Both the position numbers and the translations under genes were made by a program. From Anaerolineales bacterium (lineage in GTDB: Bacteria > Chloroflexota > Anaerolineae > Anaerolineales > E44-bin32): 64,000 nt of DNA. The stretch lies in contig JARRPX010000015.1 of NCBI GenBank assembly GCA_037382465.1, positions 1 through 64,000 on the forward strand, written 5' to 3'. The notes beneath the pieces were generated by a model. The model was not told the DNA's origin and ran no database searches. It worked only from the letters and a program-made list of their open reading frames with translations. Each line of letters opens with the position of its first letter. The first letter of the stretch is position 1. This document shows positions 3,178 to 13,164 of the stretch, in pieces.

Positions 3178-3372
3178 TAGATATACAACACGGTAAAGGT
3201 TCGTTCTTCACCGGAAAAGACGGACCGATGCGCAGGAATGTCGGGCGAATCACCAAGGCGGGATCTCCGTGCTTGACCGGCCCCGGGTGAGGTACTAGAA
3301 TCTTGATTCGAGCGGAGGCGGAATCCCATTACGGCGCAATAAATGGCCAATGTTTCCTGCGCGCGCGGGATA

Positions 3373-3381
3373 TGCTATACT
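3373..3381 (+). promoter_or_regulatory. Extended -10 promoter of the membrane/ATPase operon
   Basis: TGC followed by TATACT (3376-3381), with no convincing -35. The predicted start of transcription is at about 3388-3390, so the GTG start at 3390 would be at or within about 2 nt of the mRNA 5' end. It opens the eight-gene operon that runs to 11756. Confidence 0.5.
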
Positions 3382-3389
3382 GCGCGTAG

Positions 3390-3632
3390 GTGAACGAAGA
3401 GCGCAGTGCTTCCGAACGTGCCGCAAATTGGCTTCGACATTTCGGCTTGGGATTTGCAGCTGCCGGATTTCTCGAGGCATTCCGCTCCCTGACGTATATC
3501 GGCGCCCAAGTGTTGTTCTTGTTTGAGCCAATGATTGGCTGGCGCAGTGATTCGATCCGGGATTTTGCGCAGCTCCTGGAGGATCCCGATCAGGTCGAGG
3601 ATCTGATTCAGCGCCTGCGGGAGGAGGGATAG
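3390..3632 (+). CDS. Small protein of unknown function, first gene of the membrane/ATPase operon
   Basis: An 80-residue protein, mostly amphipathic helix, with a short hydrophobic stretch in the middle (YIGAQVLFLFEPMIGW) and an acidic C-terminus rich in D, E, Q and R. The GTG start has no upstream ribosome-binding sequence and lies directly after the extended -10 at 3373-3381, so the message may be leaderless. It ends 3 nt before the next gene, which supports co-transcription. No family was recognised. The small size with tight packing suggests an accessory of the membrane proteins that follow. Confidence 0.7.
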   Translation: MNEERSASERAANWLRHFGLGFAAAGFLEAFRSLTYIGAQVLFLFEPMIGWRSDSIRDFAQLLEDPDQVEDLIQRLREEG

Positions 3633-3635
3633 CCG

Positions 3636-4373
3636 TTGAACGTGGTGGGGATATTGGTTCTGATGCTCTTCATTGGTGGCCTGATCGTCTACACCACCAT
3701 CGGTAGGCGTTGGCCTGCCGTCTTTCGTCCCTTGCCTGCATACGATGATTTGGGAGCGGCGATCGAAGAAGCTGTCGAGGCCGGAGAACGCGTTCACGTG
3801 TCTCTGGGTACCGGCTCGGTGATCGGTACGGACGTTGCACCCGCGCTGGCTGGATTGACGATGGTGTCGAAAATCGCTGAAATTACATCTGTCAGCGACC
3901 GGCCGGTCGTCGTCACCGCAGGGGATGCCGCAATGGCGCTCCTGGCGCAGGATACCCTCCGAACAACCTACAATCGCATCAACGCCAGCGAGGCCTACAG
4001 TCCCAATGCTGGAAGGATGCTCGGTCCAACCCCGTTCTCATATATCGCCAACCTTCCGGTACTGATCGATACGGAGAAGGTATCCGTTCACGTTTTGGCT
4101 GGTTCATTCGGATATGAAGGGGCTTTGGCAGTGGATTTCGGGACCCGGCAGGGGGCTTTCTGCCTGGCCGGCACCGATGACGTGCAGTCTCAGGCGCTGA
4201 TCTATGCTACGGCAGAAGATCCGCTTGTCGGGGAGGAGCTCTTCGCGGCAGGAGCCTATTTCAATCAGCATCCAGTGCACCGGGCGGGATTACGCGTACA
4301 AGACCTGATGCGCATGATCATTATCGGCGGTATATTGGCGGGGACAATATTGCGCGCTTTGGGGGCGTTCTAG
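3636..4373 (+). CDS. DUF6754-like membrane-anchored protein
   Basis: A 245-residue protein with an N-terminal transmembrane helix (residues 4-20, VGILVLMLFIGGLIVYTT) and a C-terminal one (MIIIGGILAGTILRAL). Between them lies a soluble domain with alternating glycine-rich strands (VHVSLGTGSVIG, GALAVDFGTRQGAFCLAG) that looks Rossmann-like or alpha/beta. This matches my memory of DUF6754 proteins of Chloroflexota, whose function is unknown. The start is TTG at 3636, with GGAGGAGGG shortly upstream at the end of the preceding gene. Its stop overlaps the next start by 1 nt, so translation is probably coupled. Confidence 0.78.
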   Translation: MNVVGILVLMLFIGGLIVYTTIGRRWPAVFRPLPAYDDLGAAIEEAVEAGERVHVSLGTGSVIGTDVAPALAGLTMVSKIAEITSVSDRPVVVTAGDAAMALLAQDTLRTTYNRINASEAYSPNAGRMLGPTPFSYIANLPVLIDTEKVSVHVLAGSFGYEGALAVDFGTRQGAFCLAGTDDVQSQALIYATAEDPLVGEELFAAGAYFNQHPVHRAGLRVQDLMRMIIIGGILAGTILRALGAF

Positions 4374-5005
4374 TGAAATTGGGTGCGCACCTCGTCTGGG
4401 CCGTTGTGGCGGGCACTGCGGGTCTGTTTGTCCTGTTGGGTTACTTTATCGACCATGAAATCATCATCGCCATGCGCTTGGTGCTCATGCGTTGGGCGGT
4501 TCTCATCGCTGCCTGGGCATTGATCCTCGGGATCATCAACATCCTTTACGTGCATTTCATAAAAGTTCAGGATATGGAGCCAGGCTGGCCTTACAGCATT
4601 GTGTTGATGCTGGCGTTGATCGCAACCATCGTGTTTGGTTTCCTGTTCCGCCCCGACAGCGAAATCATGGTCATGGTGTTCAATTACATTCATTTACCCA
4701 TCGAAACCAGCTTGATGGCCTTATTGCCGATAACTCTGGCCGTGGCGGGATTCCGCCTTGTATCCCAAAAACGAGATTGGGCCAGCATGGTTTTTGCCGG
4801 CACGGCGTTTCTCGTTCTTCTGGGTACGGTGCAATGGCCTTTTTTCTCGGACGACATGTTCGAAAATCTTTCCGGATTGCGGGACTGGCTGGTTCAAGTT
4901 TTGGCCTCGGGAGGAGGGCGGGGAATTCTGTTGGGTGTCGCCCTGGGGGCAATCGTTACCGGTTTGCGGGTCTTGCTGGCCGTCGATCGACCATACGGGG
5001 ATTGA
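4373..5005 (+). CDS. Integral membrane protein, about six helices
   Basis: A 210-residue, strongly hydrophobic protein with about six predicted transmembrane segments (for example residues 7-25, 36-58, 71-88, 104-120, 129-145 and 178-198) and short polar loops. The GTG start overlaps the stop of the preceding gene (TAGTG), typical of translational coupling. No enzyme motif is visible and the family was not recognised. Its place between a DUF6754-like protein and a zinc-ribbon membrane protein suggests a role as the membrane core of the same assembly. Confidence 0.78.
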   Translation: MKLGAHLVWAVVAGTAGLFVLLGYFIDHEIIIAMRLVLMRWAVLIAAWALILGIINILYVHFIKVQDMEPGWPYSIVLMLALIATIVFGFLFRPDSEIMVMVFNYIHLPIETSLMALLPITLAVAGFRLVSQKRDWASMVFAGTAFLVLLGTVQWPFFSDDMFENLSGLRDWLVQVLASGGGRGILLGVALGAIVTGLRVLLAVDRPYGD

Positions 5006-5009
5006 ACGC

Positions 5010-7526
5010 ATGGCGGAAATTCGCTGTCCCATGTGCAGCCAGTTGAACCCTGAAGACGCAGAAGTGTGCGTTTCCTGTCAGGCGCGTTTGAAGCCTCTGG
5101 TCGCGGACAGTGCTCCGTCCGGTGCGGCTGACGACAGGCTCGAGACGCCGGCAGCACAAGCGGAAGGCGGAGCAGACCAGGGCTCGGATTGGTTGTCTCG
5201 CATACGTAGTGGTGCCGCGGAGTCGGATGCTCGGGATGAGGAACAAGCGGAGGATTTGACCCCCGATGCAACCCCGGATTGGCTTGGAAGATTGCGCGAT
5301 ACGCAGGCCCAACAAGCAGATCAGCAAGTTGGTCAGGAGGCCGAGTCAGACTGGGCGGCTCAGCGTGCGGCGCCTGATGAATCTCCCCCCACCCCTGACG
5401 CGCAAGAGGGTGAGGTTCCAGATTGGCTGGCGCGTATTCGCCAGCGCGAATCTGAAGAAACTGCTGCTCCACCCGAGACGCCAGAAATTAACGATGTGGA
5501 TTGGCGATCCCGCCTCGGACAAGGCGACAGCGCCGGTGTGGAGGATGTGGAAATTTCGGCGCGCCTCATGGGGCAGATGGAGGAACCAGAAGCGGACATG
5601 GGGTTGGAAGCCGATCAAGCTGCGCCGCAGTTCAGCCAACCCGCATGGGATGAACCCGTCTCTGCGGGAATCGATGATCGGCAAGAACTCCCCTTTCTGG
5701 CCGATGAACCTTCCTCCCCGGCAGGTGGAGAATACGACCGCCCGGAAGAACCGGGCGCTCTCGAATCTGATCTCTCCGATGTTGAATTACCGTGGTTGGC
5801 TTCCACAGAATCTCATCCAGAGTCGTTCCCGGATGAAGGTGATTCGGGCGGGTCTGCCGTGGATGATGCGGCTGAATTTTCCGAGGATCTCGAATTCGAA
5901 TGGCCTGAAATCGAGGGGCTGGACGAACCTTCCGGGATGCCGTGGGAAAGTGAAGCAGAGGCGCAGGAAGCGCAAGGTGAACAGGCTTTCGATTGGTTGG
6001 AATCCGGCGAGCCGCAACAGCCTGCTCCACCGATGGACGATGGTGTACTTTCCGGTGACGAACCCGAAGTTGCTCCAGACATATCGGCGGAGGAGCGCAT
6101 CTTTGGCGTCGACCTCGGGCTGGATGCGGAACTTCCAGACTTTATGGAACCTGCGCCGCCTGAAGCCGTCGAACCCCCAGCTTCATCCGCGTTAATCCTC
6201 GAGGAAGAGCAGCCCCCTGAGGCTCCGAGCGGAGTCGATCTAAGCCTCGACGATATCGATCTGCCGGATTGGCTGGCAGACATGCAGGGACCTGCTGGAG
6301 CGCCAGGTCGGGAGGAGATCGTCGATGACGCGGCGTTGGCGCCTGCCACATTGCCCTCCTGGTTGGAAGCCATGCGTCCCGTTGACAGTTTCCGCTCGGT
6401 CATGGACGGGGAATCTGCCGATAGCCAGGCCGTAGAATCGGCCGGACCGTTGGCCGGGCTGCGGGGTGTGCTCATGGCTGAGCCCGTCGTGGCCATGCCG
6501 CGTGCTGCGACGATTGGTTCTGCGGGTCTCGAGGTGACTGAACGGCAGTTCGCGCAGGCTGAACTCCTGCAGCATATTCTCGTGGAGGAGGAGCGTGAAT
6601 TCCCACCGGCCCAACCTGCACAAACGGGCCTGCCGCTGCTGCGTTGGATCATCAGCATCGTCCTGGTGCTGAGTGTGGCAATGCCGACGTTTCTACCGTC
6701 GATCTTTTTCGGCGTGTTCCCCAAGAACTTGTATCCCGATTTTTCAAAATTTTTTGCGGTGGTCGAGAGTCTTCCCACGGATGCGCCGGCGCTCGTCGTG
6801 TTCGATTATCCGCCCGGATACAACGGCGAGCTGAGTACGATTGCAGGGCCGTTCCTGGAACATCTCGTCGGGCGAGGGGTTCCGATCGCAACGTTATCCA
6901 CGACGCCCACCGGTCCCTCCTTGGCCGAAGCGATCCTCAGTAAGTATGGTGAGAACTGGACCAATTACATCCACCTGGGCTATTTATCGGGCGGGCCTAC
7001 TGCGGTTCAAGTTTTTGCGGCTGCTCCACGTATTGCTATTCCGAGGGGCTTCAAAATTCCAACTACGCTTCAGGATGATCAAATTCTGCCCGATAAGCGG
7101 GAAGTCGATATTACAGTCTGGCAATCGAGGCTTCTCGGAAACGTCGAAAGACTTTCTGATTTCAGCATGGTTGCGGTCATCACCGCCGGCCCTGAAAATG
7201 CACGCACCTGGGCCGAGCAGGCACCGAAATGGCTGGACGGCAAACCGCTGATCATGATTTTAAGTGCGGGTGCAGAGCCGTTGGTGTGGCCGTACTACGA
7301 ATCCACGAATCCACAAGTCCAAGGCATCATTGCGGGAATGCCGACGGCAGTTGGTTATGAGTTGTATCTAAACGGACAGACCCACGCAGCAGAGAACAGA
7401 TGGGATGCTTTTGGGTTCGGCATGTTTTCCGCCCTGCTGCTTCTTCTCGTTGGTGGGTTGTACGGCCTTGGAAGAGGATTGTGGCGCCTCGGTATGAGAA
7501 CGACCCAAGGTGGCGTGGATGACTGA
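5010..7526 (+). CDS. Zinc-ribbon protein with repeated D/P-W-L motifs and membrane-anchored C-terminal domain
   Basis: An 838-residue protein. It begins MAEIRCPMC with a CX2C...CX2C zinc ribbon (Cys 6, 9, 20, 23). A long acidic, proline-rich, probably disordered region (about 30-530) follows. Through it recur short tryptophan motifs: SDWL near 59, PDWL near 89, SDW near 113, PDWL near 137, VDW near 163, LPWL near 260, FDWL near 327, PDWL near 419 and LPSWL near 448. A transmembrane helix (about 541-563), a 230-residue alpha/beta domain predicted outside the cytoplasm, and a second helix (about 802-825) complete it. The frame is open upstream to 4758 but that part overlaps the previous gene; ATG 5010 lies 4 nt after its stop and starts at the zinc ribbon. 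It looks like a cytoplasmic scaffold tethered to the membrane. Function is unknown. Confidence 0.82.
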   Translation: MAEIRCPMCSQLNPEDAEVCVSCQARLKPLVADSAPSGAADDRLETPAAQAEGGADQGSDWLSRIRSGAAESDARDEEQAEDLTPDATPDWLGRLRDTQAQQADQQVGQEAESDWAAQRAAPDESPPTPDAQEGEVPDWLARIRQRESEETAAPPETPEINDVDWRSRLGQGDSAGVEDVEISARLMGQMEEPEADMGLEADQAAPQFSQPAWDEPVSAGIDDRQELPFLADEPSSPAGGEYDRPEEPGALESDLSDVELPWLASTESHPESFPDEGDSGGSAVDDAAEFSEDLEFEWPEIEGLDEPSGMPWESEAEAQEAQGEQAFDWLESGEPQQPAPPMDDGVLSGDEPEVAPDISAEERIFGVDLGLDAELPDFMEPAPPEAVEPPASSALILEEEQPPEAPSGVDLSLDDIDLPDWLADMQGPAGAPGREEIVDDAALAPATLPSWLEAMRPVDSFRSVMDGESADSQAVESAGPLAGLRGVLMAEPVVAMPRAATIGSAGLEVTERQFAQAELLQHILVEEEREFPPAQPAQTGLPLLRWIISIVLVLSVAMPTFLPSIFFGVFPKNLYPDFSKFFAVVESLPTDAPALVVFDYPPGYNGELSTIAGPFLEHLVGRGVPIATLSTTPTGPSLAEAILSKYGENWTNYIHLGYLSGGPTAVQVFAAAPRIAIPRGFKIPTTLQDDQILPDKREVDITVWQSRLLGNVERLSDFSMVAVITAGPENARTWAEQAPKWLDGKPLIMILSAGAEPLVWPYYESTNPQVQGIIAGMPTAVGYELYLNGQTHAAENRWDAFGFGMFSALLLLLVGGLYGLGRGLWRLGMRTTQGGVDD

Positions 7527-8247
7527 ACTCAGCGGCCTCGATCTCATCGGCACACTCATCGCCGCGCTGCTGACCGTGATGGTGCTATCTTATATCATCG
7601 GCGACAATTTCCTTTTTCGCCTGGCGACGTACATCTTCATCGGGGTTGCCTCTGGGTATGCGGGCTCTGTTGCCGCGCACAGCGTCTTGGGCCCAGGTCT
7701 TTTTTCACCGTTGCTTAATAATAGTTTACAGGGGATCTTCGAATCGAAAAACATCATCAACTTGCTGATCCCATGGTTGATGATTTTGCTTCTTTCGTTG
7801 AAGATTTTTCCGGGCGGCGCTCGCTACGGGGGCTTACCGATGGCGATCCTCGTCGGCGTAGGCGCCGCCGTTGTTGTTGGCGGGGGTATTACAGGCACGT
7901 TGATCCCACAATCCCTTGGCGCCACGGAGACGGTCGATTCTCTGCTCCAATCGTCGAATGCGGAAGAGCCACTCTACGAAAGGCTTATCTATGCGGTCGT
8001 AATGCCCCTGGGCACGATCAGCACGTTGATGTATTTTCGTTTCAGCGCCAAACGGGAGCTTTCCGGTGAAGCTCGCCGGCCTTTCATAACGAGTGTGTTG
8101 GCTACCGTCGGTAAGTTTTTCATCGCGGCGACATTTGGGGTGATGTACGCCGGTGCCCTGGCATCATCGATCGTCATTCTTGCCGAGCGTTTCCAATTCC
8201 TGAAAGATGTCTTGTCGATGTTGGCGGACAAGTTGGTGGGCGGATGA
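7519..8247 (+). CDS. Polytopic membrane protein of the same operon
   Basis: About 242 residues with seven or so hydrophobic segments, including LIGTLIAALLTVMVLSYII near the N-terminus, a glycine-rich helix (ILVGVGAAVVVGGGITGTL) in the middle and a last one containing GVMYAGALASSIVIL. A GTG at 7510 is in frame, but AAGGTGG at 7507-7513 fits ATG 7519. Either start overlaps the upstream gene's stop. The downstream ATPase gene overlaps by 4 nt (ATGA). No family was recognised. Overlaps on both sides mean it is almost certainly made together with the zinc-ribbon protein and the ATPase. Confidence 0.78.
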   Translation: MTELSGLDLIGTLIAALLTVMVLSYIIGDNFLFRLATYIFIGVASGYAGSVAAHSVLGPGLFSPLLNNSLQGIFESKNIINLLIPWLMILLLSLKIFPGGARYGGLPMAILVGVGAAVVVGGGITGTLIPQSLGATETVDSLLQSSNAEEPLYERLIYAVVMPLGTISTLMYFRFSAKRELSGEARRPFITSVLATVGKFFIAATFGVMYAGALASSIVILAERFQFLKDVLSMLADKLVGG

Positions 8248-10004
8248 ACACGAACATCGACATCGAAACCCTCCTGGCGATCGACGTAGGCAGTGTGCAC
8301 ACGCGCGCGATCCTGTTCGACGTCGTCGACGGGCAATATCGCCTCGTTGCAACCGGCCGAGTTCCTTCGACTTCGGGTGCCCCGCTGTTCGACATCAGCG
8401 AAGGCGTGCGCAACGTGTTGGATGAATTGAAGCGCATCTCGGGGCGATCCTTCATAGACGATTCCGAAAATTTGATCATGCCGGTCGCCAGTGCCAGCGC
8501 TGGGGTCGACCGCTTCATGGCTACGGCTACAGCCGGGCCGAAAGTACGCACTATCCTGGTTGGCCTCATGCCTGGGGTTTCCGTGGAGAGCGTGCGTCGC
8601 CTGGCGGCGATGAGTTATCTGGATGTCGTCGGGGAGATCGACCTCATGGACCGCCGCCGGGATGAAGAGCAAATCGATGCCATTCTATCCGCGCGACCGG
8701 ATTTGATCCTCATCGCTGGCGGCACGGACGGCGGAGCGATAGATTCGGTTCTGCGTATGGTCGAAACCGTGAGTCTGGCGTCACGATTGCTGCCCATCAA
8801 CCAGCAGCCCAGAATCATCTACGCGGGCAACCAGCAGATTGTGGGCGCCATAGGTGATTATTTCGGAGATTGGGCGACCCTCATCCCATCGTTGAACGTG
8901 CGGCCAAGCATCGAAACGGAAGACATCGCTCCGGCTCGTAAACGCGTTACGGACGGCATCGCCGAGCTGCGTGCAGCTAAGATCGCGGGATTTGACGAAC
9001 TTATCGATTGGTCGGACGGTCACTTCATGTTGACGGCGGATGCTTTCGGCCGGGTGATACGATATTTGAGTCAGGTATACAGCCCGGAGAAAGGTGTCCT
9101 GGGGATTGACCTTGGCGCCAGTCAAGTGACCGTTGCCGCTGCTTTTGACGGCAATCTCGATGTTTCTATCCTGGCGGATTTGGGAATGGGTACGTCGTTG
9201 GATGGCATTCTTGAACGCGGCAAGATAAGCGATATCAAGCGCTGGTTGCCGATCGAATTACCCGACTCCTACGTGCGTGATTACATTCACAACAAGACGC
9301 TGTTTCCGCGCACGGTACCGACCATTCTCGAAGAGCTACATCTCGAGCACGCCCTGGCACGGGAAATCGTGCGTCTGGCGGTTAAAAAGGCACGTTCGGG
9401 TTGGGCGGGAAACAGCGCTGCGCATTCTTCTGTTTTAATGCCGCCGTTGGAACCGATCATTGCCAGCGGCGGCGTGCTGACAGGTGTGCCCCGACCGGAA
9501 TTCGCCGCCTTGATGCTTTTGGATGCCATTCAACCGACCGGTATCACGACTCTGGTTCTCGATCCCAACAGTTTGACACCGGCGCTTGGCGTTGCGGCCG
9601 GACAAATGCCGGTCGTAACAGTCCAAGTCCTCGAGACCGGGAGCTACATCAGCCTGGGTACGGTCATCGCACCCATTGGACGCTCGCGTAAGGGTAGGCG
9701 TATTCTAAGTTTACGGCTCGAGCGAACGGATGGAGGTGAAGAGGTCACCGGGGAGTTAAGAAAGGGGCAATTGGTGCGTATACCGCTTTCCCAGGGAGAA
9801 CAGGGCAGGCTTACTATCCGGCCCGAACGAGGCATCGACGTCGGTTTCGGCGGGCCGGGGAAGGCGGGGACAATTCGTGTTTCCGGAGGCGCCGTGGGTT
9901 TGGTCATCGATGGGCGGGGTCGACCTTTGCAGCTTTCGAAAGATCCGGCCCACCGACGGGAACTCAATCAGAAATGGCTGTGGGACATTGGAGCGATGGA
10001 ATAG
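8244..10004 (+). CDS. GlmL/MutL-family ASKHA-type ATPase
   Basis: A 586-residue protein with an actin/Hsp70-like phosphate motif near residues 9-22 (LLAIDVGSVHTRAILFD) and a second one near 285 (VLGIDLGASQVTV), plus AGGTDGGA and GMGTSLDG loops. This is the pattern of the glutamate mutase L (MutL) family, which accompanies B12-dependent glutamate mutase in fermenters. No mutase subunits (GlmS/GlmE) and no B12-binding DXHXXG motif are visible in the window. Instead the gene is embedded among membrane proteins, overlapping the upstream one by 4 nt. I infer a mechanical or assembly ATPase role, as PilM or FtsA play for their machines; this is unproven. Confidence 0.85.
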   Translation: MNTNIDIETLLAIDVGSVHTRAILFDVVDGQYRLVATGRVPSTSGAPLFDISEGVRNVLDELKRISGRSFIDDSENLIMPVASASAGVDRFMATATAGPKVRTILVGLMPGVSVESVRRLAAMSYLDVVGEIDLMDRRRDEEQIDAILSARPDLILIAGGTDGGAIDSVLRMVETVSLASRLLPINQQPRIIYAGNQQIVGAIGDYFGDWATLIPSLNVRPSIETEDIAPARKRVTDGIAELRAAKIAGFDELIDWSDGHFMLTADAFGRVIRYLSQVYSPEKGVLGIDLGASQVTVAAAFDGNLDVSILADLGMGTSLDGILERGKISDIKRWLPIELPDSYVRDYIHNKTLFPRTVPTILEELHLEHALAREIVRLAVKKARSGWAGNSAAHSSVLMPPLEPIIASGGVLTGVPRPEFAALMLLDAIQPTGITTLVLDPNSLTPALGVAAGQMPVVTVQVLETGSYISLGTVIAPIGRSRKGRRILSLRLERTDGGEEVTGELRKGQLVRIPLSQGEQGRLTIRPERGIDVGFGGPGKAGTIRVSGGAVGLVIDGRGRPLQLSKDPAHRRELNQKWLWDIGAME

Positions 10005-10044
10005 TGGTCTGGCATCAACCTTGCAACGTAAGGCACGGTGAGAT

Positions 10045-11112
10045 ATGAAAAAGTCGTATAACATACCCGTGACTCACGTCGTTTCCATGACGACGATCCG
10101 GCGAGAACGCTTGATGCCAGTTCCCGGAACGGTGCTCGTGGGTGTGAACGAATCCGTCAAGGGAGATCAGGTGTTGGCAGAATCCGCACCCACACCACAT
10201 CATTATTTTTTGAACGTCGCCCGTGGTCTGGGTGTGCCCGTGCGCCGCGTGGGGCAATATCTGGTGCGTAAAGCCGGAGAACGGGTTGAAAAGGGAGAGA
10301 TTATCGCCGGCCCGGTGGGTTTTGCGCGGCGATCCGTACGCGCCCCGCACGATGGGCGCATCGTGGCGATCACGCGCGGACGGGTGCTGTTCGAAGTGCG
10401 AGCAGAACCGATGGAATTACAGGCGGGTTTCCCCGGCCGGGTAATTGCTACGGATGGCGTTCAAACCATAACCCTCGAAACCAGCGGCGCCCTGGTTCAA
10501 GGCATATGGGGGAACGGTTTGCAGGATGCCGGCATCATGCGGCTCGCGGGGGATGATCCGTCGAGCAGACTGCGAGCGGGTCAACTCGATATCAAATTGC
10601 GCGGCGCGATCGTGGTTGCGGGAATATGCGACCACCCTGCACCATTGAAACAGGCAACGGACATCTCCGTGCGCGGAGTCATATTGGGAAGCATACTCTC
10701 GGATATTATTCCCGTCGCGAAGGAATTGCCTTATCCGTTGATTATTACGGAGGGTTTTGGGGAGCTGCCGATGAACAGCGCTGCTTTTCAAATCCTGGGG
10801 AGCAACGTGGGACGGGAAGTATCGATCGATGCAACCCCGATGGAACCCTACAAGATAAACCGCCCGGAGGTCATCATTCCGCTGCCTTCGAACGTGCCTA
10901 TCGAACTGCCGAACGAAGTGATCCCGATCAAGCGCGGAATTCGTGTGCGCATTCTACGTGCACCCCATCGAGGTAAAGTCGGCAAGGTGCGAGAGATGCT
11001 GCCCAGGGCGAGCATCTATCCGAGCGGCGTACACGCCGTGAGCGCAAAAATCGAGCTGGAACAGGGTGGCGTGATCTCCGTTCCTGTGGATAATTTGGAT
11101 GTGATTCAATGA
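10045..11112 (+). CDS. Barrel-sandwich plus KOW-like domain protein of the membrane/ATPase operon
   Basis: A 355-residue soluble protein. Residues about 65-115 read like a barrel-sandwich hybrid (lipoyl/RnfC-like: VRKAGERVEKGEIIAGPVG, then VRAPHDGRIVAITRG), without the lysine of a true lipoyl site. The C-terminus (about 295-340, RVRILRAPHRGKVGKV) resembles a KOW motif. The gene lies 40 nt after the ATPase, preceded by GGTGAGAT. No catalytic residues were recognised. The architecture suggests an adaptor that binds other components of the complex. DUF-level assignment was not possible by eye. Confidence 0.72.
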   Translation: MKKSYNIPVTHVVSMTTIRRERLMPVPGTVLVGVNESVKGDQVLAESAPTPHHYFLNVARGLGVPVRRVGQYLVRKAGERVEKGEIIAGPVGFARRSVRAPHDGRIVAITRGRVLFEVRAEPMELQAGFPGRVIATDGVQTITLETSGALVQGIWGNGLQDAGIMRLAGDDPSSRLRAGQLDIKLRGAIVVAGICDHPAPLKQATDISVRGVILGSILSDIIPVAKELPYPLIITEGFGELPMNSAAFQILGSNVGREVSIDATPMEPYKINRPEVIIPLPSNVPIELPNEVIPIKRGIRVRILRAPHRGKVGKVREMLPRASIYPSGVHAVSAKIELEQGGVISVPVDNLDVIQ

Positions 11113-11186
11113 GACCCATCGCCGGTTGTGGGCCGATTGCCCAGCGGGAGGCCGCTTGCCGGTTTGGAGAGTAAGGAGCATGGATT

Positions 11187-11756
11187 ATGGCAGAAGATTT
11201 TGAGGTGGGTGGCTTACTGCCCGGAGAGTCCTCGAGCAATCGAACCTTCGTTATGGCTGCCGTCGGATTGGGCGCCTTGCTGATTCTAAGTATGGCTTGC
11301 TTGGCGGCCTACGCATTGTGGTATGCGCCAAGACAGAAAGTAGCGCAACAGACAGAGGCGGCGGAAATCGTACTGCAGAACACGGAAGTCGCCGGTACGC
11401 AAACCGCAGAAGCGTCGGGCGCCACGGAAGCAGTTGCCCCTCCTACGGAAGCGGAAACTGCCACACCATCTCCGACGATCACGCCGACTCAAGTCGTCGT
11501 GCTGCCCACCAACACGCCTACGGAATTCTTGACCCTGGGCACGGTCGAACCGGGCACGGCGACCGCGGCCGCCCAGGCTACGCTCGATGCGGAAATGGGG
11601 GGAGGCGGAGGTGGAACACCGACGGCAACAGCCTTGCCGGTGACCGGCTTTGCGGACGAAGTGGGTATGCCGGCGCTGCTATTGCTTGCAGGGGCCTTGC
11701 TGGCCGTCATTTTCGTCGCCCGGGGCATTCGAACGCGTGGCGAGGTACAAGACTGA
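11187..11756 (+). CDS. Surface protein with LPVTG-type C-terminal sorting-like signal
   Basis: A 189-residue protein. It has an N-terminal membrane segment (about 21-46), a Thr/Pro/Ala/Glu-rich stalk with repeated TP and TAT units, a run of glycines (about 138-143), then LPVTG at 150-154, a hydrophobic helix (about 160-178) and a positively charged tail (RGIRTRG). This order is exactly that of LPXTG sortase substrates. AAGGAG lies 8 nt before the ATG. No sortase gene is visible in the window. It is the last gene of the operon and could be the exported product or surface anchor of the system. The stalk may alternatively just hold a bitopic protein away from the membrane. Confidence 0.78.
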   Translation: MAEDFEVGGLLPGESSSNRTFVMAAVGLGALLILSMACLAAYALWYAPRQKVAQQTEAAEIVLQNTEVAGTQTAEASGATEAVAPPTEAETATPSPTITPTQVVVLPTNTPTEFLTLGTVEPGTATAAAQATLDAEMGGGGGGTPTATALPVTGFADEVGMPALLLLAGALLAVIFVARGIRTRGEVQD

Positions 11757-11850: not shown

Positions 11851-13164
11851 ATGGATATGCAACTATCTGATCTGGCACTTCGATTGCTGGGCGACCTTGC
11901 TGCTGGAAATTGTGTTGCGATTACAGGATTGAGCAATTCCGGAAAATCGACACTCATGCGATCTCTGGCAACGCAAGAAGCCAAGGACGCCTTTTACCAA
12001 GCCGGCGGTCGCCACGGCTTTCTCATCTACATCGATTGCAACCATGCAGTATCGATATCGGCGCAGGCTTTTTATGAGGTCGTATTACGAACGGTATTGG
12101 AGAGGCTGACGGATCAAATTTCCGAGGATCTGGCAAAGGGGTTGAGAAATTACTATGAATCCGTAACGGAAGCCGAATCGGCGTTCGCCGCTTCTCTCTC
12201 TTTCAATCTTGCTTTGAGCGATCTCTGTGAACAATTGGAGGGCGATCTTTGCCTGCTCCTGGATGAGTTCGACGAAATTTATTCGTCGCTCGACGAGCGT
12301 GCTTTGCTCAACTTGCGCGCGCTGAGGGATCGGTTCAGCGATCGTCTGGCGTATGCGACCGCAACACTGCGCGGACTTCCTGTTTTACGCGGCCGTCCCA
12401 TCGAAGGGGAATTCGCCGAGTTGTTCTCCCGGTTTTGTTACACAATGCCGCTGCTCGATGACGCGCAATCCGAACAAATCCTCGAGAAGCTCCAGCTCGG
12501 TTCAATTACCGAGGAAAAACGCTCGTTTTGTGTATCGATGGCAGGTGGACATCCGGGTTTATTAATCGCCGTTGCTCAAGTGGTGGCGGCTTCTGCGGAC
12601 GATAAAAAAGCGTATCAAGTCGAACGCGTAAGCCGTGAACCGCAGCCGAGGGCAGAGTGCCTGAAGTTGTGGGATCAGCTCAACGAAGATGAACAGGCTC
12701 ATCTGAGTTCATTGGCGACGGATCCTCAATCCGGACTACCGCAGCAGCATCTCCGCCATCTGGAACAACTCTCGCTACTCCGCGGTAAAAAGATCTTTTC
12801 CCCGATCTTCGAGGACTTCTTGCTGCGGAAATCGAGAGGGCCCGAAATCGACGCGCAGGGTGTTTACCTCGATTCGGACTCCGGCGACGTGTGGGTCGAC
12901 GGCGTGCGTATCCCCGTGTTGACCGACCTTGAATTCCGTTTGCTCGCGTTGCTGTATGAGCGGCTGGATAAATTGACCGATAAATACCGCATCGTTACAG
13001 CCGTGTGGGGGGAAGAGTACCTTGGCGATGTGGATGATGCGCGAGTGGAGAAATTGGTGAGTCGCTTACGCAGCAAGATCGAGACCGACCCTGCCGAGCC
13101 ACGTTATTTGATTACGCAGCGCGGCCGCGGGTATAAGCTTTTATCCGTGCCGCGCACGCAGTAA
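11851..13164 (+). CDS. P-loop ATPase fused to OmpR-type winged-helix DNA-binding domain
   Basis: A 437-residue protein. The Walker A motif GLSNSGKST lies near residues 29-37 and Walker B (LCLLLDEFDEI) near 133-143, as in AAA/STAND-like ATPases. The middle (about 190-300) looks like the helical lid/winged region of AAA proteins. The last 100 residues form a trans_reg_C domain (LTDLEFRLLALLYER ... VWGEEY ... VEKLVSRLRSKIE ... RGRGYKL). There is no receiver domain, so DNA binding is probably controlled by nucleotide binding instead of phosphorylation. It has its own promoter, overlapped by a 13-bp palindrome that may be its operator. The domains are clear; the target genes are unknown. Confidence 0.85.
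   Translation: MDMQLSDLALRLLGDLAAGNCVAITGLSNSGKSTLMRSLATQEAKDAFYQAGGRHGFLIYIDCNHAVSISAQAFYEVVLRTVLERLTDQISEDLAKGLRNYYESVTEAESAFAASLSFNLALSDLCEQLEGDLCLLLDEFDEIYSSLDERALLNLRALRDRFSDRLAYATATLRGLPVLRGRPIEGEFAELFSRFCYTMPLLDDAQSEQILEKLQLGSITEEKRSFCVSMAGGHPGLLIAVAQVVAASADDKKAYQVERVSREPQPRAECLKLWDQLNEDEQAHLSSLATDPQSGLPQQHLRHLEQLSLLRGKKIFSPIFEDFLLRKSRGPEIDAQGVYLDSDSGDVWVDGVRIPVLTDLEFRLLALLYERLDKLTDKYRIVTAVWGEEYLGDVDDARVEKLVSRLRSKIETDPAEPRYLITQRGRGYKLLSVPRTQ

Follow-up and report, generated by a model that had tools for sequence, protein, structure and literature searches.

MutL/GlmL proteins are described as partners of the B12-dependent glutamate mutase. Outside this family, the systems closest to the locus presented here are two adaptors of the ASKHA fold, namely PilM, which acts on PilN in type IV pili, and FtsA, which acts on FtsZ and FtsN. 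Both are among the structural matches of the MutL-family protein of the locus, and for both a complex with a partner peptide has been solved (PilM:PilN1-12 and FtsA:FtsZ(336-351)). DUF6754 (PF20539) is the other named family concerned; it serves here as a marker of the cluster, and a published function for it was not found. The locus itself is a cluster of eight genes, designated A to H, from a member of the Chloroflexota. It is real, conserved and, so far as checked, undescribed: no publication on DUF6754 or on a Chloroflexi MutL in this role was found in the open-access literature searched, outside which most subscription journals lie.

The window (the whole stretch of DNA analysed, 64,000 nt long) belongs to an assembly of 3.7 Mb and contains eight co-directional plus-strand ORFs at positions 3390-11756 (Table 1). 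Eight plus-strand genes with short gaps and overlaps had been announced by the original prediction, and all ORFs and spacings were found as described, the intergenic distances from A to H being +3, -1, +4, -17, -4, +40 and +74 nt. The proposed parts were likewise retrieved: B as a clear member of DUF6754 (103.6 bits for a cut-off of 27, E = 1.3e-29), F as a MutL protein, G as a barrel-sandwich/KOW protein through RnfC-like barrel-sandwich and KOW matches that lie below cut-off, and D as a zinc-ribbon protein through a weak profile match. Hydropathy predicts two TM segments each for B, D and H, six for C, four or more for E and none for A and F; G has a single weak hydropathy stretch, which the predicted model of this protein places inside a folded domain. 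Profile searches assign no family to A, C, E and H, and sequence searches give no recognisable fold for B or for the outer domain of D. Homology between B and this outer domain was rejected (hhalign probability 3%), as was a paralogous relationship of C and E (0.7%). Comparison of A-H with the anti-phage defence models of PADLOC gave no match at E 0.1, absence from that library excluding nothing.

Table 1. Genes of the cluster, with positions in the window
Gene	Position	Strand	Features
A	3390..3632	+	80 aa; hydropathy shows no TM; family not assigned; conserved as first gene
B	3636..4373	+	DUF6754 (PF20539); one TM at either end; cytoplasmic location predicted for the middle domain (flanking K/R)
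C	4373..5005	+	Polytopic membrane protein with about 6 TM; family not assigned
D	5010..7526	+	Zinc ribbon at the N-terminus, then an acidic linker in which (E/D)(L/V/I)PxWL recurs, TM, extracytoplasmic domain, TM
E	7510..8247	+	Polytopic membrane protein; motifs GDNxLFR and GTLxPQ conserved; family not assigned
F	8244..10004	+	MutL-family (PF13941) ASKHA ATPase-like protein; Rossmann-like insertion and extra C-terminal domain
G	10045..11112	+	Barrel-sandwich hybrid, swivelling domain (149-280) and KOW/SH3 domain (292-355)
H	11187..11756	+	Signal-anchor, Thr/Pro-rich stalk, LPVTG sorting-type signal

Upstream of A, a sigma-70-like site (10/12 match) is located at 3273-3301, in a region where such sites are not above chance. 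Downstream of H, gene I (11851-13164, plus strand) was considered as a ninth member and rejected, its homologues being scattered, its order not conserved and a promoter-like site preceding it. It encodes an AAA ATPase that ends in a winged helix of the OmpR type (Trans_reg_C), which is an unusual domain order.

Gene order was checked in related Chloroflexota genomes and is conserved. Regions of up to 20 kb around F homologues were taken from about 40 genomes and the homologues of the window genes marked by iterated HMMs; the order A-B-C-D-E-F-G recurs in many families of the phylum, and because of this recurrence the arrangement is not attributable to chance. A named collection of 80 other loci, mostly from Anaerolineae, was gathered with a sequence pattern that includes the C-terminal stretch of F; 55 of them contain the complete set ABCDEFGH in one order. 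Most incomplete loci hold only the genes nearest F, as is expected where a contig ends. Within A-G, median gaps in the collection range from -4 to +7 nt. All loci are labelled Chloroflexota or its groups, save L099, a contig titled Chthonomonas calidirosea (Armatimonadota) with an Anaerolineae-like F, which represents either a transfer or a mislabelled genome bin. At the level of the phylum, DUF6754 is present as a single copy in 44 of 201 sampled genomes (0 of 14 control genomes), and the F profile matches all 44. This profile matches 180 of 301 sampled Chloroflexota genomes (about 60%), a few of the 180 having a true GlmL only; among the 14 control genomes, PF13941 was met in two archaea, both below cut-off.

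As judged from its sequence, F is a member of the MutL family but not GlmL. It matches PF13941 (MutL) with 196.9 bits (cut-off 27, E = 6.9e-58) from position 2 to 447 of the 450-position model, so that F and GlmL share a Pfam family over its whole length, with the ASKHA core and the inserted region aligning throughout. However, against the GlmL equivalog (NF040745) F reaches 85.9 bits, below the cut-off of 475, and true GlmL-type proteins in a few sampled genomes score 455-567 bits against PF13941. A tree built from 34 F and 6 GlmL-type proteins splits the two groups with 100/100 support. F differs further by a C-terminal domain missing from GlmL, with the motif GLVID(A/G)RGRPL, of which D(A/G)RGRP is the most conserved stretch of the family (80/80 loci, a count to be read with the fact that the pattern used to find the loci includes this stretch), and also by fixed membrane-gene neighbours and the lack of mutase genes. 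That no mutase accompanies this MutL-like gene had been part of the original prediction: glutamate mutase subunit E (PF06368) was not found in the genome of the window, and in a set of 53 genomes it exceeds the cut-off in three, each with a separate true GlmL.

The predicted model of F (pLDDT 93.6) displays a two-lobed ASKHA core, an inserted domain (residues about 98-247) matching receiver/flavodoxin-like Rossmann folds, and an extra C-terminal domain predicted as a beta domain. For residues 6-461 the best fold match is FtsA (Z 14.8, rmsd 5.6, 282 residues aligned); BadF-type activators (Z 12.6-13.5), acetone carboxylase (13.4) and PilM (12.5) were matched as well, as was diol dehydratase reactivase. 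At the sequence level, PilM is likewise retrieved by the F profile (5eou, PilM:PilN1-12, E = 0.0013). An analogy with PilM and FtsA, proposed at the outset, is thus backed both by this sequence match and by the predicted fold. Putative ASKHA phosphate-binding motifs are recognisable with simple patterns in 61/80 and 64/80 loci. F was nevertheless rejected as the FtsA and as the PilM of this genome, where ftsZ is immediately preceded by a canonical FtsA-like gene on G000:C40 and a PilM_2-family gene sits elsewhere. FtsA differs from F in that it is devoid of the MutL insertion and of the C-terminal domain.

D is the protein on which F might act. Its first ~540 residues form a cytoplasmic-looking motif scaffold, followed by a TM segment, an extracytoplasmic domain of ~230 aa and a second TM segment. 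The repeated motif has the consensus (E/D)-(L/V/I)-P-(D/A/S)-W-L-x-x-(L/I/M)-R. Homologues of D average 8.2 P-x-W-(L/M/I/V) motifs per protein, where shuffling of the same sequences leaves 0.37, and the maximum in one protein is 62; the D of the window has five. The density of PxWL is 10.6 per 1000 residues in D against at most 0.4 in the other proteins of the cluster. One F homologue possesses PDWL motifs in its own tail, and some genomes with F-G only (e.g. G252 and G008) show no excess of PxWL.

The motif of D, in its form E-L-P-D-W-L-x-x-L-R, resembles peptides at or near the C-termini of the two FtsZ-type proteins encoded in this genome, namely DLDIPAFLRRR and DNLDLPAFLRRR. The second FtsZ-like protein of the genome (L161, 954-3119, plus strand) has its tubulin/FtsZ domain after an N-terminal region of ~380 aa and ends in DNLDLPAFLRRRASIG; its reading frame may join two genes or correspond to a true fusion. 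Resemblance also exists with the PilM-PilN pair, where, as predicted for F, an ASKHA protein acts on a membrane protein and where short Pro-Trp-containing peptides are involved, such as those in the predicted cytoplasmic part of D. However, the cluster has no pilus gene (A-E, G and H do not match the pilN, pilO, pilP or pilQ families), D matches no PilN family, and the peptides of D are many, repeated and internal.

The idea that the PxWL motif is private to D was rejected. Searched in a strict DNA form, the motif occurs in the genome of the window only in D and in one TPR protein of 1475 aa with about 11 PxWL motifs, encoded at a place unlinked to the F cluster (L224, on G000:C45, 12126-16553, minus strand). 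Further genomes of this order have counterparts with 11-13 motifs (L236, L237 and L238). Whatever protein reads the motif of D may have this TPR protein as a second ligand.

The cluster probably encodes a membrane complex, undescribed and phylum-specific as far as tested, that would be built of the TM-anchored proteins B and D together with the polytopic proteins C and E. For its functioning, the reading ranked first, with a probability of about 0.4, is that F, alone or with G, is a nucleotide-dependent adaptor docking on the motifs of D at the B-C-D-E complex. F would be a cytoplasmic nucleotide-binding protein of ASKHA type and G its partner. Comparable to PilM on PilN or FtsA on FtsZ/FtsN, F, by itself or paired with G, would find its docking sites in the (E/D)(L/V/I)PxWL peptides repeated along the cytoplasmic tail of D. 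Many F molecules would so be gathered or switched at one membrane site, with ATP gating the docking, and in Anaerolineae the LPxTG protein H would be added outside. We infer each of these three points, i.e. the assembly of the proteins into one complex, the binding of the motif by F and the gating of this binding by ATP. Docking is proposed because the motif of D resembles FtsZ tails and because solved complexes of PilM and FtsA with partner peptides exist. Also counted in favour of the adaptor reading are the conserved order of A-G, the match of the F profile in every genome with DUF6754, the sequence and fold matches to PilM and FtsA, the excess of the motif in D, the zinc-ribbon/PxWL protein that reduced clusters often keep next to F-G, and the F homologue with PDWL in its tail. 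Counted against the adaptor reading is the fact that BadF-type activators, acetone carboxylase and others are nearly as close to F in fold (within about 1-2 Z); moreover, since the TPR protein is also rich in PxWL, another protein may be the motif reader. The genomes with F-G only in which PxWL is not in excess, and the want of a recognisable fold in the sequences of B and of the outer domain of D, likewise speak against it. A broader formulation, slightly less probable and put forward tentatively, is that a MutL-family ATPase freed from B12 mutases gates a multivalent membrane motif scaffold, with F-G as an ancient cytosolic core, in a phylum-wide system of a new kind. The recognisable parts of the cluster are themselves variants of known folds.

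The fold matches just mentioned bear on the best surviving alternative, according to which F is a reactivase or chaperone (like GlmL, diol dehydratase reactivase and BadF-type activators) for another enzyme, possibly membrane-bound or B12-dependent, with G and the membrane proteins as the client or its scaffold. Membership of the MutL family fits such a role, as do the matches to BadF-type activators, acetone carboxylase and diol dehydratase reactivase, the existence of F-G without membrane genes, and a fusion found in one Chloroflexota genome. The latter (L040, 4233-8024, plus strand) is a mutase-type protein of 1264 aa with a weak N-terminal B12-binding match and a C-terminal MutL domain, in a genome where the A-H cluster was not seen. 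The alternative is nevertheless unlikely: no recognised B12-enzyme gene occurs within A-H, mutase subunit E is missing from almost all genomes with F, and F forms a clade apart from GlmL, with a C-terminal domain of its own.

Variants of the cluster lead to a second alternative. F-G pairs also occur without B, C and E and are the most widespread unit, around which the membrane genes are gained or lost as a block. The reading of the locus as an envelope machine, advanced by the original prediction, is accordingly supported in part, applying to the expanded form of the cluster and not to these pairs. Reduced forms often retain a zinc-ribbon/PxWL protein adjoining F-G after the loss of B, C and E. 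As F-G exists without membrane genes, its main task may lie in the cytosol. Some families have G unlinked from F and yet present, with one copy in each of 12 genomes checked, ten of which were picked because G is unlinked there. The unlinked G adjoins response-regulator genes or a gene for a protein with a receiver domain and a C-terminal roadblock/LC7-like stretch (L208, 7972-9159, minus strand; also L222 and L223); the roadblock call comes from reading the sequence, Pfam confirming the receiver only. Several F homologues from families with an unlinked G end in a basic-aromatic tail, e.g. KRGFFRRK, which could target them to the membrane and is a further point of likeness to FtsA.

F-G might therefore be a cytosolic regulatory pair or a pair associated with nucleic acids or the ribosome, linked to the envelope by the membrane genes in some lineages only. 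Besides its wide distribution and the neighbours of the unlinked G, this is suggested by the domains of G. In the predicted model (pLDDT 91.4), the segment 149-280 resembles swivelling domains, with AF_0055 (Z 11.2) ahead of rifampin phosphotransferase (10.9), the small subunit of aconitase X (10.2) and RraA (9.8). The segment 292-355 resembles the KOW domains present in Spt5 and NusG, at Z values of about 9, a Spt5/uL24/NusG-like relationship also found by profile comparison (E down to 7.5e-9). However, KOW/SH3 folds are frequent in protein-protein roles, and many lineages keep F-G tightly linked to the membrane genes, with ORFs overlapping or nearly touching, so that this possibility is rated as improbable, marginally behind that of a reactivase.

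H displays the features expected of a sortase substrate (LPxTG, hydrophobic stretch and basic tail). A surface protein with an LPVTG signal had been predicted and the signal stood, LPx[TS]G with a basic tail being present in 55 of 75 H proteins, with x varying freely. H occurs only in the class of the window and a few neighbours. H thus appears as a lineage-restricted surface part and not a core component. A system for secretion or export of a surface polymer, with H as its product or tip, along the lines of the original prediction, would agree with these signals, the two sortase genes of the same genome and the polytopic nature of C and E, but is the least probable reading and quite doubtful, because H is absent beyond a few related families while A-G persist, and C and E have no transporter family among their profile matches.

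The adaptor reading set apart, the position of F outside GlmL corrects an annotation in a large and poorly studied phylum: given that the F profile is found in 180 of 301 genomes, Chloroflexota genes annotated as a glutamate mutase helper are mostly something else. The cluster, with DUF6754 and several nameless families, also provides a defined gene set for asking whether a phylum-wide membrane complex exists.
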